The translations under genes were made by a program, and so were the position numbers. Below the pieces are notes generated by a model. That model was not told where the DNA came from. It was given only the letters and a program-made list of their open reading frames with translations, and made no database searches. Shown here in pieces: positions 20,905 through 27,799 of a DNA stretch of 64,000 bases (its first letter is position 1; each line of letters opens with the position of its first letter). Origin of the DNA: Rhizophagus irregularis. Lineage: Eukaryota > Glomeromycota > Glomeromycetes > Glomerales > Glomeraceae. Location: NCBI RefSeq assembly GCF_026210795.1, contig NC_089433.1:372001-436000 (forward strand), read 5' to 3'.

Positions 20905-21264
20905 ATGTTTTCTCAGAATATACTTTTGACAAGAAATAATATTCTGAAATATTTAGAAACCAATTTTACAAATTGGACCAGTGGTAACGAAAAAATCAAT
21001 AATTTTATTCAAAAAAGGCAATTAGGAATTATTGTCAATGATGCTGATGTGGTGCTTGAATGGATACCATACAATCAGTTTAACGAAATTAAAGAGATAG
21101 GCGGAAATGGCCTTATAACAGTATATTCAGCAATATGGAAGGATGGTCCATTATATGAGAAAATTGATATGTGGAGTGAAAGTTATACAAGAGATTCAAA
21201 TAAAGAAGTTGCTTTAAAATATTATCATAATTCGCAAGAATCCATTGATTATTTAATAAATGAG
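20905..21264 (+). repeat. N-lobe exon 1 (first unit, carries the start codon)
   Basis: The 120 codons begin MFSQNILLTRNNILKYLETN and lack the beta-4/5 leader found in later units. The glycine loop reads GGNGLITV, with Asn where the second glycine of GxG belongs; the beta-3 lysine is kept (VALKYY). Confidence 0.8.
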
Positions 21265-24200
21265 GTATGAAATGTCTTTAAATATTTAAATTTTTTTTTT
21301 TTATTAATTAATATATTTACAGTTTCTTTTATTTAGGCTAAAAAATATCCAGCAAAATATGAATCATTTCAAGTATTACATGGAATATCTCAAAATCCAG
21401 ATACAAATGATTATATTTTAGTTCTAAATATTTCCATAAACGTAACAAATTGGATAAGTGGAGATGAAAAAATTGATGATTACATTCTGGAAAGGCAATT
21501 AAAAATTAATAACTATGATGATATAGTGCTTGAATGGGTACCATACAATCAGTTTAATGAAATTAAAATGATAGGCAAAAATGGTCTTATAACGGTATAT
21601 TCAGCAATATGGAAGGATGGTCCATTATACAAAGAGGATATATGGAGTAATTACATAAAAGATTCAAATAAAAAAGTTGCTTTAAGATGTTTACATAATT
21701 CACAAACATCCATTGTTTCTTTAATAAATGAGGTATAAAATTTCTTTAATATTTATAATATATATTTTTGGTGATGATCACCGGTGACTGAAATTATGAC
21801 AATCGACCAGCATTAAAAAAATATAGTGCCGGTAAAATTGATAATTCCGGCCAACGGTGATGATCACCCCTAAAAAAATTATTTTGAATTAGTATATTTA
21901 CATTTACAATTCCTTTTTATTTATGTTTAGGCTAAAAAATATCCAACCAAATATAGGGCATTTCAAGTATTGTATGGTATATCTCAAAATCCTGATACAA
22001 ATGATTATATTTTTGTTCAAAATAATTATACATGGAAAAGTGGAAATGAAAAAATTGATAATTTCATTCAAGAAAGGCAATTAAAAATTAATAACTATGA
22101 TGATATAATGTTTGAATGGATACCATACAGTCAGTTTAATGAAATTAAAGAAACAGGCAAAAATGGTCTTATAACAGTATATTCAGCAATATGGAAGGAT
22201 GGTCCATTATGTTTTAATAAACAATATGAAAATTATACAAGAGATTCAAATATAAAAGTTACTTTAAAATGTTTATATAATTCACAAGAATCCATTGATT
22301 CTTTAATAAATGAGGTATGAAAATTCTTTAAATGATTAATATTTTTTTTAATTAGTATGCTTACAATCTCTTTTATTTATATTTAGTCTAAAAAATATCA
22401 AATTAAACATAAAACTTTTCAAGTATTATATGGAATATCTCAAAATCCTATTACAAATGATTATATTTTTGTTCAAAATAATTATACATGGATAAATGGA
22501 AATGAAAAAATTGATGATTTTATTCAAGAAAGGCAATTAAAAATTAATAATGATAATGATCTAATTTTTGAATGGATACCATACAGTCAGTTTAATGAAA
22601 TTAAAGAAACAGGTAAAAATGGTCTTATAACAGTATATTCAGCAATATGGAAGGATGGTCCATTATACAAAGAGGATATATGGAGTAATTACATAAGAGA
22701 TTCAAATAAAGAAGTTGCTTTAAAATATTTACATAATTCACAAGAATCTATCGATTCTTTGATTAATGAGGTATGAAATTTCTTTAATGCTTAAATATTT
22801 TTTTTAAAATTACTTATATACAATCTCTTTTATTTATATTTAGGCTAAAAAGTATCCAATAAAATATAAATTATTTCAAGTATTATATGGAATATCCCAA
22901 AATCCTGATACAGGAAATTATATTTTAGTTCTTACATGGGCAAGTGGAAATGAAAAAATAGATGATTTTATTCGAAAAATGCAATTAAAAATAAACAATA
23001 ATGATAATTTAATTCTTGAATGGGTACCATATAGTCAGTTTAATGAAATTAAAGAAATAGGTAAAAATGATCTTATAACAGTATATTTAGCAATATGGAA
23101 GGATGGTCCATTAAATTGCAGTAAGTTGCATCATAAATATGCAAGAGAATCAAATAAAGGAGTTGCTTTAATATGTTTACATAATTCACAAAAATCCATT
23201 GATTATTTGATTAATGAGGTATGTAATTTCTTTAAATGTTTAAATAATTTTTAATTAATATATTTACAATCTCTTTTAATTACATTTAGGCTAAAAAGTA
23301 TCCAACAAGACATAAAGCATTTCAAGTATTGTATGGAATATCTCAAAATCCTGATACAGGAGATTATATTTTTATTCAAAATAATTATATATGGACAAGT
23401 GGTAATGAAAAAATTGATAATTTTATTCGAGAAAAGCAGTTAAAAACTAATAATAACAATGATTTAGTATTTGAATGGATTCCATACAGTCAGTTTAATG
23501 AAATTAAAAAAACAGGTAAAAATGACCAAATAACAGTATATTCAGCAATATGGAAAGATGGTCCATTATGTAAAAAGAGTATATGGAGTAATAATTATTC
23601 TAGAGATTCAAGTAAAGAAGTCGCTTTAAAATGTTTATATAATTCACAAGAACCCATTGATTCTTTGATTAATGAGGTATGAAATTCTTAGACATTTAAT
23701 ATTTTTTTTAATTAATATATTTACAATCTTATTTGATTATATTTAGGTTGAAAAATATCTAATAAAACGTAATGCATTTCAAGTATTGTATGGAATATCT
23801 CAAAACCCTAATACAAAAGATTATATTCTTGTTCTTATATGGGCAAGTGGAAATGAAATAATTGATGATTTCATTCAAGAAAGTCAATTAAAAATTAATA
23901 ACTATAATGATATAGTATTTGAATGGATACCATACAATCAGTTTAATGAAATTAAAGAGACATGTAAAAATGGCTTTATAACGGTATATTCAGCAATATG
24001 GAAGAATGGTCCATTATGCAAGATGGATAGATTAAGTAATAATTATACTAGAGATTCAAATAAAGAAGTTGCTTTAAAATATTTGCAAAATTTACAAGAA
24101 TCTGTTGATTCTTTAATAAATGAGGTATGAGATTTCTTTGAATATTTAAATACTTTTTTTTAATTAGTATATTTACAATCTCTTTCATTTTAATATATTT

Positions 24201-27200: not shown

Positions 27201-27799
27201 ATATATATAATTTTGGTAATTGTATATCAGTTTCAGATATGGGATTATGCGGAGAAGTTGGTAATATGGATGAAACTAAAATATATGGAGTTATGCCTTA
27301 TGTGGCTCCTGAAGTATTAAGAAAAAAGCTTTATACCCAGGAATCAGATATTTATAGTTTTGGTATGATAATGTATTTTGTAGCAACTGGAAGACAACCT
27401 TTTTATGACCGTGCACATGATCATCAACTTGCATTGGATATTTGTAAAGGAGTTAGACCTGAAATATGTGAACCAGAAGCACCAAGATGTTATATTGATT
27501 TAATGAATAAGTGTTGGGATTTAAATCCAAATAATAGACCAAATGTTCTTGAAGTAAATGAATTAATTGTGTCATTTCATAAGTCATATGGAAGGGATTT
27601 TTACATAATAGAAAATGAAGAAATTGAAATGCAATTCAAGAAAGCAGAAGAATATAGAAAAGCAAATCTTTCATTTATTAAAAATTACCAAATAGCTACT
27701 CATCCACAAGCTATTTACACATCTCGATTACTTAATTCATTTACAGGAGATCTTTCAGAATATGATGATAATTCTCAATGTTTAGATCAAGCAATCTAA
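20905..27799 (+). CDS. Protein kinase gene with 13 tandem N-lobe exons and one catalytic C-lobe exon
   Basis: Fourteen exons: 20905-21264, 21337-21732, 21931-22314, 22387-22770, 22844-23218, 23290-23676, 23747-24124, 24203-24577, 24648-25021, 25093-25476, 25553-25942, 26012-26386, 26463-26846 and 26936-27799. Introns are about 70-90 nt (intron 2 is 198). Every junction is phase 0 (GAG|GTATGA-like donors; TTTAG|GCT AAA acceptors). Exons 1-13 each encode the kinase beta-1 to alpha-C region, from EWIPYNQFNEI to about DSLINE; exons 2-14 each begin with the beta-4/5 segment (YGISQNPDT). Exon 14 supplies HRDFHTGN, a DMG variant of DFG, PYVAPE, DIYSFGMIMYFVATGRQPF and RPNVLEV. Full inclusion would give about 1,936 residues, but exon 9 has a 1-nt deletion. 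Exon 1 joined to exon 14 gives 407 residues, near the usual size of this family. Whether the product is a giant protein or alternative isoforms is open. Confidence 0.85.
21337..21732 (+). repeat. N-lobe exon 2
   Basis: 132 codons and the longest unit. The linker NISINVTNWISGDEKIDDYI resembles the start of exon 1. Loop GKNGLITV; the beta-3 lysine is replaced by arginine (VALRCLHNSQ). Confidence 0.8.
21770..21868. mobile_element. MITE inserted in intron 2 of the N-lobe-array kinase gene
   Basis: About 99 bp with inverted ends GGTGATGATCACCGGTGA and CCAACGGTGATGATCACC. The interior (ACTGAAATTATGAC, ATCGACCAGCATT, ATAGTGCCGGTAAAATTGAT, AATTCCGGCC) matches the element at 63053-63149 in the opposite orientation. 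It explains why this intron is 198 nt while its siblings are about 70-90 nt. Confidence 0.8.
21931..22314 (+). repeat. N-lobe exon 3
   Basis: 128 codons. Loop GKNGLITV; the VALK motif reads VTLK, so the lysine is kept. The leader reads YGISQNPDTNDYIFVQNN. Confidence 0.8.
22387..22770 (+). repeat. N-lobe exon 4
   Basis: 128 open codons, although no usable ATG occurs early in the unit. The first codon is TCT (Ser) instead of GCT (Ala). Loop GKNGLITV; lysine kept (VALKYLHNSQ). Its C-terminal part is almost identical to exon 12 (YKEDIWSNYIRDSNKEVALK). Confidence 0.8.
22844..23218 (+). repeat. N-lobe exon 5 (beta-3 lysine lost)
   Basis: 125 codons. Loop GKNDLITV; VALK has become VALI (VALICLHNSQ), so this unit cannot form the usual lysine contact with ATP. 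SAIW reads LAIW. Confidence 0.8.
23290..23676 (+). repeat. N-lobe exon 6
   Basis: 129 codons. Loop GKNDQITV; lysine kept (VALKCLYNSQ). Confidence 0.8.
23747..24124 (+). repeat. N-lobe exon 7
   Basis: 126 codons. The first loop glycine is cysteine (CKNGFITV); lysine kept. The unit starts GTT GAA (VEKYL) rather than the usual AKKYP. Confidence 0.8.
24203..24577 (+). repeat. N-lobe exon 8
   Basis: 125 codons. Loop GKNSLITV, so the third position glycine is also lost; lysine kept. It is closest to exon 9 (shared KTKNY and GPKYK stretches). Confidence 0.8.
24648..25021 (+). repeat. N-lobe exon 9 (1-nt frameshift)
   Basis: 374 nt rather than a multiple of three. After KKVAL the expected TTAAAATGT reads TTGAATGT, one base short, and the frame runs to a stop at 25011-25013. 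The downstream text still matches the other units in the shifted frame (SIDSLINE), and the donor follows GAA instead of GAG. Skipping this exon restores the frame because its neighbours are in phase 0. An assembly or sequencing error is possible. Confidence 0.8.
25093..25476 (+). repeat. N-lobe exon 10
   Basis: 128 codons. Loop GKNGCITV; lysine kept (VALKYLYNSK). The beta-2/beta-3 insert is longer than in its neighbours (HYNNWTKKYDKFESNSNKK). Confidence 0.8.
25553..25942 (+). repeat. N-lobe exon 11
   Basis: 130 codons. The linker VQKDFINFANWTSKNEKIDD again resembles the start of exon 1. Loop GKNSLITV; lysine kept. Confidence 0.8.
26012..26386 (+). repeat. N-lobe exon 12
   Basis: 125 codons. 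Loop GKNGLTIA, which also loses the conserved valine after the loop; lysine kept. Confidence 0.8.
26463..26846 (+). repeat. N-lobe exon 13 (only unit with a canonical glycine loop)
   Basis: 128 codons. The loop is GNGGFAIVYSANW, matching the GxGGF form usual for this kinase family, and VALK is intact. It is the unit next to the catalytic exon, so a 13-14 join alone would give a complete kinase domain. Its C-terminal half is the most diverged from the others (EYYTNKSIYKRNPNIM). Confidence 0.85.

Follow-up and report, generated by a model that had tools for sequence, protein, structure and literature searches.

The window analysed here, a stretch of 64,000 nucleotides of the Rhizophagus irregularis genome (contig NC_089433.1, positions 372,001 to 436,000), carries on its forward strand an array of 13 homologous exons of 360-396 nt each, between positions 20905 and 26846, followed by one larger exon at 26936-27799. 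The 13 exons encode segments of the N-terminal lobe (N-lobe) of a protein kinase, and only the last exon, with 287 residues and a stop codon, encodes a C-terminal lobe (C-lobe), recognizable by its HRDFHTGN, SDMGL and APE motifs. The earlier note on this DNA had described 13 consecutive N-lobe exons of this size and a single C-lobe exon, and both descriptions are borne out. A core of 129 nt recurs in 13 copies, 12 of which are 69-86% identical to the reference copy, which places the array far beyond chance. GT follows all 13 N-lobe exons, and AG precedes exons 2-13.

The earlier note had the repeated exons running from β1 to αC. They are homologous N-lobe segments as claimed, but their boundaries lie elsewhere: exons 2-13 open with the end of αC and strands β4-β5 (AKKYP...LYGISQNPDTGDYILV), continue through a linker (WTSGNEKIDDFIQERQL) and close with β1-β3 and the start of αC, the names of these elements being assigned by homology to the last kinase. 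A whole N-lobe consists of the 3' part of exon n and the 5' part of exon n+1. As it spans a splice junction, it depends for its completion on the joining of neighbouring exons; dropping any one exon leaves whole N-lobes. In exon 1, an N-terminus of its own replaces the β4-β5 part. The canonical form of the glycine-rich loop that grips ATP (Gly loop), GNGGFAIV, is found in exon 13 only, and exons 1-12 carry loops similar to GKNGLITV. Phase 0 had been assigned to all junctions; this is true for 12 of the 13 N-lobe exons, whose lengths are multiples of three, and fails at exon 9, which contains a 1-nt frameshift. Eleven of the 13 window introns were measured (the pair flanking exon 9 was excluded), and all are 69-89 nt long except intron 2 (21733-21930), which has 198 nt instead of about 72. 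The sequence GGTGATGATCACC is present twice in intron 2 and resembles a small inserted element. The individual exons are listed in the table.

Table. Exons of the kinase array in the window.
Exon	Position	Strand	Content
1	20905..21264	+	ATG, specific N-terminus MFSQNILLTRNNILKYLETNF, β1-αC of N-lobe 1 (GGNGLITV loop)
2	21337..21732	+	αC end-β4-β5 of lobe 1, linker, β1-αC of lobe 2
3	21931..22314	+	layout as exon 2; preceded by the 198-nt intron
4	22387..22770	+	layout as exon 2
5	22844..23218	+	layout as exon 2
6	23290..23676	+	layout as exon 2
7	23747..24124	+	layout as exon 2
8	24203..24577	+	layout as exon 2
9	24648..25021	+	layout as exon 2; 374 nt, frameshift in the β3-αC part (lesion or assembly error)
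10	25093..25476	+	layout as exon 2
11	25553..25942	+	layout as exon 2
12	26012..26386	+	layout as exon 2; last noncanonical unit
13	26463..26846	+	β1-αC of the catalytic N-lobe; GNGGFAIV, β3 Lys (VALK) and αC Glu present
14	26936..27799	+	αC end-β4-β5, hinge, whole C-lobe (HRDFHTGN, SDMGL, APE), C-terminal tail, stop

Exons 13 and 14 together encode a full kinase domain, which matches Pfam family PF07714 (3.5e-46) over profile positions 4-256 of 258. The nearest PDB sequences are an EGFR chain (4e-23) and then the TKL kinases roco4 (5.9e-22), RIPK1, TAK1 and B-raf. The motif set is complete, comprising GNGGFAIV, VALK, NE, HRDFHTGN, SDMGL (a D-x-G motif) and APE. The kinase domain of exons 13 and 14 is thus of TKL type and is predicted to be active. 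The domain aligns with Roco4, RIPK1, TAK1, MLK and B-raf over much or all of its length, with DMG in the place of DFG. Each of these known kinases has one N-lobe per C-lobe.

The array belongs to a class of genes with members on many contigs. The genome searched comprises 146,748,485 bases on 32 contigs, and the searches scored the best 136-150 candidates. In the search with the exon 12 protein, the best 150 of 4,663 candidates all match, and they are clustered on many contigs. The window and 29 fetched stretches give 30 array loci with a total of 338 units, from 4 to at least 21 per locus, some of the loci being cut at the fetched ends. The C-lobe exon follows directly after the last unit within the fetched stretch in 24 of the 30 arrays; it lies no more than 700 bases beyond the stretch at L016, L029 and L030, and more than 5 kb further on at L005. 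Most array C-lobes share at least 70% identity with the window C-lobe; at L012, L030 and L031 the identity is 58-63%. Among the 20 C-lobe exons that are complete and stop-free, the Asp and Asn of the catalytic loop (HRD, HCD or HHD) are kept in 19, and DMG and APE in all 20.

Fifteen further loci (L032-L046) were added, drawn partly from 140 listed C-lobe matches, which are not all the kinases of the genome. Four loci chosen for their clustered pattern matches (L032-L035) contain 7, 9, 5 and 4 N-lobes. The next eight (L036-L043) represent about every tenth C-lobe match, counted by hand, ranked below the close group; at least three N-lobes lie within 3.2 kb of seven of these C-lobes and one near the eighth (L040). 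Within 3.2 kb of three close-group C-lobes (L044-L046), the N-lobes number one, seven and two, respectively. The earlier note had suggested looking through fungal genomes for kinase genes with several N-lobe exons per C-lobe. This comparison was made in the fungus's own genome, which was the scope of the eukaryotic search, and there the window array is not unique, as the seven of eight sampled C-lobes illustrate. A pattern search of the genome yielded 547 exact matches, listed in part, against none in the control; single N-lobes may also match the pattern, and as it recovers only 178 of the 338 known units, the genome-wide number of units is uncertain. No relatives were confirmed in scans of viral contigs or of GTDB genome contigs. 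The collapse of an assembly as the source of the array is very unlikely, because the 30 loci differ in unit number and their units are about 70-75% identical in protein. The array is real by these sequence comparisons, is very unlikely to be an artefact, and extends as a type well beyond the window.

Two further observations concern the arrays as a group. The linkers between N-lobes at L032, L034, L038, L039, L041 and L043 contain, as judged by eye, a segment of the form CxxC...CxxC resembling a zinc ribbon, which the window array does not have. The region of contig C16 at about 2.3-4.7 Mb is a hotspot of kinase arrays: 18 of the 31 fetched array stretches lie there, and the contig also has many C-lobe matches.

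The position of the canonical Gly loop follows a rule in these arrays. Over all fetched loci, a loop of the form [G/D/E]xGGF[A/S] is present in 38 of the 39 N-lobes adjoining a C-lobe and in one of the 361 upstream N-lobes (7 of 407 N-lobe matches, in which the loop was not covered, are excluded, and a few broken units are counted as two pieces). The exception among the last units is that of L040, whose reading frame contains stops. Where the canonical loop has its second glycine, 94% of 270 internal units have Asn, and the 21 clean last units all have Gly; the loop residues Phe and Val likewise do not vary among these last units. By sequence the upstream lobes are a class distinct from the catalytic lobe, two exceptions aside. 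As kinases in their own right, the upstream units lack more than the loop. No upstream unit was met with a C-lobe of its own; the C-lobe matches of the first 30 loci sit at the 3' ends of the arrays, and successive units are separated by introns with a median length of 72 nt.

The same division appears in trees, which, like the ratios of nonsynonymous to synonymous change given below, were computed from 291 clean units of the 338 (270 internal, 21 last). In the DNA tree all 21 last units, and no others, group apart with a weak support of 0.55; in the protein tree they group with one unit of L005 at a support of 0.994. Every last unit has another last unit as its nearest relative, and so does one of the 270 internal units. 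A further tree of 151 units combined 60 random upstream and the 24 last units from the first 30 loci with the full set of 67 units from L032-L046. Here the state of being last or upstream changes 6 times when all columns are used and 12 times without the Gly-loop columns, compared with about 35 changes for shuffled labels. Without the Gly-loop columns, several last units of distant arrays adjoin upstream units of their own array, so that the rule arose more than once or persisted through an exchange of units. The 151-unit trees (FastTree, at most 92 columns) are trustworthy in outline only.

The arrays appear to have changed in length by the movement of whole units. Internal units have a median protein identity of 74.6% within an array and 70.2% between arrays, and the nearest relative of 146 of the 270 lies in the same array. 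When array labels are traced on the DNA tree, 93 changes are counted, compared with a mean of 227 for shuffled labels. Thirteen pairs of units within arrays exceed 93% protein identity, at offsets of 1, 2, 3 and 9 units, several of them as consecutive blocks. Such near-identical blocks are the trace that unequal exchange between introns would be expected to leave.

The 5' ends of the arrays are related as well. An ATG that shares the frame of the first unit is present in 23 of the 30 arrays. None was found for L013, L016, L019, L024, L026 and L030, four of which are cut at the fetched end, and the array C2b (L003 and L004 combined), whose 5' end is cut, was excluded. Fifteen of the 30 arrays, including that of the window, begin by eye with the peptide M-[FSL]-[SP]-QN (in L031 at a second Met). 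Among the 22 arrays with 400 nt available before this ATG, 117 of 231 pairs can be aligned in their upstream DNA, in register, as far as the ATG; these alignments join 16 arrays into one group and two into another. The similarity of the upstream DNA shows common descent of the 5' ends, not selection on them. The shared start peptide and upstream DNA suggest that transcription probably begins at the 5' end of the array. An inverted repeat resembling a miniature inverted-repeat transposable element is located at 19944-20149, about 0.75 kb before exon 1; its 72-nt arms are 94% complementary and 62 nt apart.

The units, their splice sites and frames, the canonical-last rule, the shared 5' ends and the block duplications are all plain in the DNA, and together they make it possible to propose how such a gene works. 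A single transcript would start at exon 1, and all of its exons would be spliced constitutively and translated as one chain. About twelve tandem pseudo-N-lobes, that is, half kinase domains (β1-β5 with αC) with a degenerate Gly loop, would then precede the kinase of exons 13 and 14, which would be active. The chain would have about 1,930 residues if exon 9 is intact (1,013 from exons 1-8, 798 from exons 10-14 and about 125 from exon 9). The number of units would shift by duplication and loss of blocks of whole intron-exon units, a process that spares the reading frame because the αC intron is in phase 0. We consider it fairly probable that the locus is one constitutively spliced gene for such a giant protein, in which pseudo-N-lobe repeats are followed by one TKL-type kinase. 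In favour of this reading stand the canonical-last rule, the exon lengths, which vary and yet keep the frame, the shared start exon and the lesions, of which there are 17 in 338 units and none in 18 of the 30 arrays. The giant scaffold with a string of non-catalytic N-lobes, which the earlier note had offered as a possibility, accordingly appears to be the best reading of the sequence.

The upstream lobes have presumably lost the function of the Gly loop and retained the core fold. They are a median 63% identical to the last unit, and of the 270 internal units 93% have retained the β3 Lys and 86% the αC Glu, the codon of this Glu also being placed at the splice donor. The pseudo-N-lobes might offer multivalent surfaces to which partner kinases or ligands bind and in this way control the single active kinase. 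We propose, by analogy, that they regulate the last kinase as in tandem pseudokinase-kinase proteins. In RAF- and RIPK-type kinases the surfaces of N-lobes are dimer interfaces, which makes control by N-lobe contacts plausible.

Several observations weigh against this reading. The AlphaFold model of exon 12, computed with the 13 window units as input, is poor (mean predicted local distance difference test score, pLDDT, 55.7), its strands and helices appearing in the expected order at low confidence. Foldseek found no match to this model at E<=0.001; the best was RIP3 kinase at an E of 0.89, and the kinases among the top rows are all unreliable. A profile search of the PDB with ten internal N-lobes gave four rows at E<=10, the best at 0.56 and one a kinase at 0.68, none of them significant, and Pfam searches with exons 1, 12 and 13 singly gave no kinase family above the cut-off. 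The N-lobe fold of the upstream units thus rests on their homology to the last unit. Two arrays, L006 and L024, have no nearby C-lobe among the matches listed. The C-lobe exon of C2b, an array of at least 21 units, is open and has lost the catalytic loop, so that its product is perhaps a pure pseudokinase. The canonical upstream unit, L005 6477-6852, is the final one in an array whose fetched stretch has no C-lobe, and it is the L005 unit that clusters with last units in the protein tree; one upstream unit of L035 has the loop SKGGFATI, canonical but for the first Gly. Finally, the frameshift of exon 9 breaks the full-length message, and the 17 lesions found in the 338 units are spread as at random (18 of the 30 arrays are lesion-free, compared with 17.2 expected), which sequencing error or tolerance of lesions exon by exon would fit. 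The apparent source assembly, that of R. irregularis DAOM197198 from Nanopore and Illumina reads, has a consensus quality value (QV) of 36.27 (PMC10234402). At this value one error is expected in about 4,200 bases, and about 30 in the units, which total 129,608 bases. The 17 lesions could therefore be assembly errors, if most errors were indels, and the frameshift of exon 9 may be one of them.

A first alternative is exon skipping, in which transcripts would contain different subsets of units, giving isoforms that differ in the number or kind of their pseudo-N-lobes, or pseudokinase isoforms that join an upstream N-lobe to the C-lobe. Phase-0 units would permit the splicing of such subsets. 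Exon lengths are multiples of three in 237 of 238 cases in which the donor was sought without regard to frame; the exons take 28 distinct lengths, all multiples of three, a count obtained partly by construction as the sites were sought in the frame of the hidden Markov model, and the intron lengths are spread evenly over the three remainders on division by three (107/106/94). Skips would therefore keep the frame, and omission of exon 9 would even restore it in the window gene. If spliced to exon 14, an upstream unit would remain kinase-like, given the retention of the β3 Lys. The array introns are, however, short (the median of 72 nt was given above), each has its own GT and AG, and there are no frame-breaking pairs or introns below the minimal length, such as would enforce an exclusive choice. 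The position rule of the Gly loop also speaks against transcripts in which the C-lobe is routinely spliced to upstream units. Exon skipping is a serious but unlikely possibility.

It is also conceivable, though doubtful, that the upstream units form a recognition repertoire under diversifying selection, by analogy with fungal NLR proteins, whose repeats are recognition repeats under such selection. The range of unit numbers and the near-identical blocks at offsets of 1, 2, 3 and 9 would fit this idea, as would the β2-β3 loop, which is the part of the units most variable in sequence and length. A tree-based counting test flags 4-5 of 128 codons as positively selected after Bonferroni correction, mostly in or near this gap-rich loop, and in length-matched disjoint pairs the loop exceeds the rest of the unit in the raw ratio of nonsynonymous to silent differences at the two lower identity cut-offs (Fisher p 5.9e-5 at 0.75 and 0.025 at 0.80). 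At these two cut-offs, however, silent differences are also raised in the loop, and in the same pairs the site-corrected ratio is 0.17-0.68 for the loop against 0.45-0.55 for the rest over four cut-offs. The C-lobe exons give a similar ratio of 0.48: as ratios of sums over pairs, internal units compared between arrays yield 0.515, last units 0.407 and the 20 full, stop-free C-lobe exons (190 pairs) 0.478. The same tree-based test yields an overall ω of 0.63-0.67, with two neutral spectra, and identifies 24-26 of the 128 codons as significantly conserved by purifying selection. Diversifying selection had been suggested by NG86 ratios that exceed 1 in the bins of lowest dS, but these ratios are suspect because the bins were made on dS itself. 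As the length-matched pairs do not show a ratio above 1, only the following is claimed: selection, as estimated from these sequences, is purifying on average (dN/dS about 0.5-0.67) and change is fast, and the claim of adaptive diversification is dropped.

A decaying array, in which exons 13-14 or a short part would be expressed alone and the upstream units would be relics, is highly improbable. The frameshift of exon 9, the 17 lesions and the altered upstream Gly loops would be expected of relics. Units that have diverged by 25-30% in protein are nevertheless still in frame, the ω value and the codons under purifying selection mentioned above indicate constraint, a shared start exon and shared upstream DNA lie kilobases before the C-lobe exon, and 24 of the 30 arrays lead directly into that exon. 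Expression of exons 13-14 alone is unlikely in view of the shared first exon and the shared upstream DNA. The least likely arrangement is a mutually exclusive choice of N-lobe exons diversifying one kinase, as the earlier note had also suggested, because the choices are not equivalent: the canonical loop occurs beside the C-lobe and in one of 361 upstream lobes, which makes interchangeable N-lobes unlikely, joint inclusion remains in frame and is not penalised, since exon lengths are multiples of three, and the introns have their own GT and AG.

The proposed giant kinase can be compared with two known types of organization. In the JAK family and in GCN2 a degenerate kinase module stands ahead of an active kinase. 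The repeated module of tandem pseudokinase-kinase proteins is a whole bilobal kinase domain, usually in one copy, whereas in the window gene the N-lobe alone is repeated, in many copies, and there is no complete second kinase domain. Frames and splice sites would allow the pseudo modules and the kinase to be in one polypeptide, except at exon 9. The wheat tandem kinase WTK7-TM is similar in having a degenerate kinase module before an active kinase in one chain (PMC11006675). Mutually exclusive exon clusters, of which Dscam is one, provide the second comparison. Clusters of tandem exon duplications (PMC9013439, PMC3228551) resemble the window array in that homologous exons, alike in length and phase, stand in tandem. 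The array shares with exclusive-exon clusters neighbouring homologous exons of similar length and the same phase (12 of 13 multiples of three). It differs in that joint inclusion keeps the frame, no frame break or too-short intron forbidding joint inclusion being found in it, and in that the other units are not equivalent to the last.

R. irregularis is reported to have expanded kinase families and duplicate genes arranged in tandem arrays (PMC8647823, PMC4219462). These kinase families are from the same species and of the same broad class, and in the portions of the two papers that were available they are described as gene families or arrays of genes, not as N-lobe exons within one gene. No description of repeated N-lobes in one kinase gene was found in open-access titles and abstract openings, although it may exist elsewhere; the remark of the earlier note that no kinase of this architecture has been described agrees with this.

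Other genes of the window include further kinases. At 4362-5715 and 15195-17257, both on the reverse strand, open reading frames (ORFs) for kinase C-lobes (PF07714/PF00069) adjoin ORFs with Sel1 repeats (PF08238). MLKL-like proteins with Sel1 repeats are reported to be exclusive to Glomeromycotina among the fungi studied (PMC8778642), and the two loci resemble these proteins. A Kelch-repeat protein (Pfam Kelch families) is encoded at 36821-38283 on the reverse strand. Long ORFs with many hydrophobic segments, which by eye look like channels, lie at 58477-60862 on the forward strand, the first of them having a weak Pfam match to a disordered repeat.

Taken as a whole, there is in our estimate an even chance that these arrays represent a new architecture: giant kinases in which long chains of pseudo-N-lobes feed one catalytic domain, forming a large class in an arbuscular mycorrhizal fungus. 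Such genes would evolve by intron-bounded block duplication, with the canonical-last rule kept or re-created in several subfamilies, and their products would act as multivalent sensors or scaffolds, possibly variable between strains. The canonical-last rule and the chains of half domains would surprise specialists. The two lobes of a kinase are usually viewed as one working pair; if the proposal is true, the N-lobe can function as a repeat module on its own. The proposal leads to predictions on the transcripts, on strain variation in unit number and on how the last kinase is regulated. Part of the kinase expansion reported in arbuscular mycorrhizal fungi would also gain a concrete structure from it.

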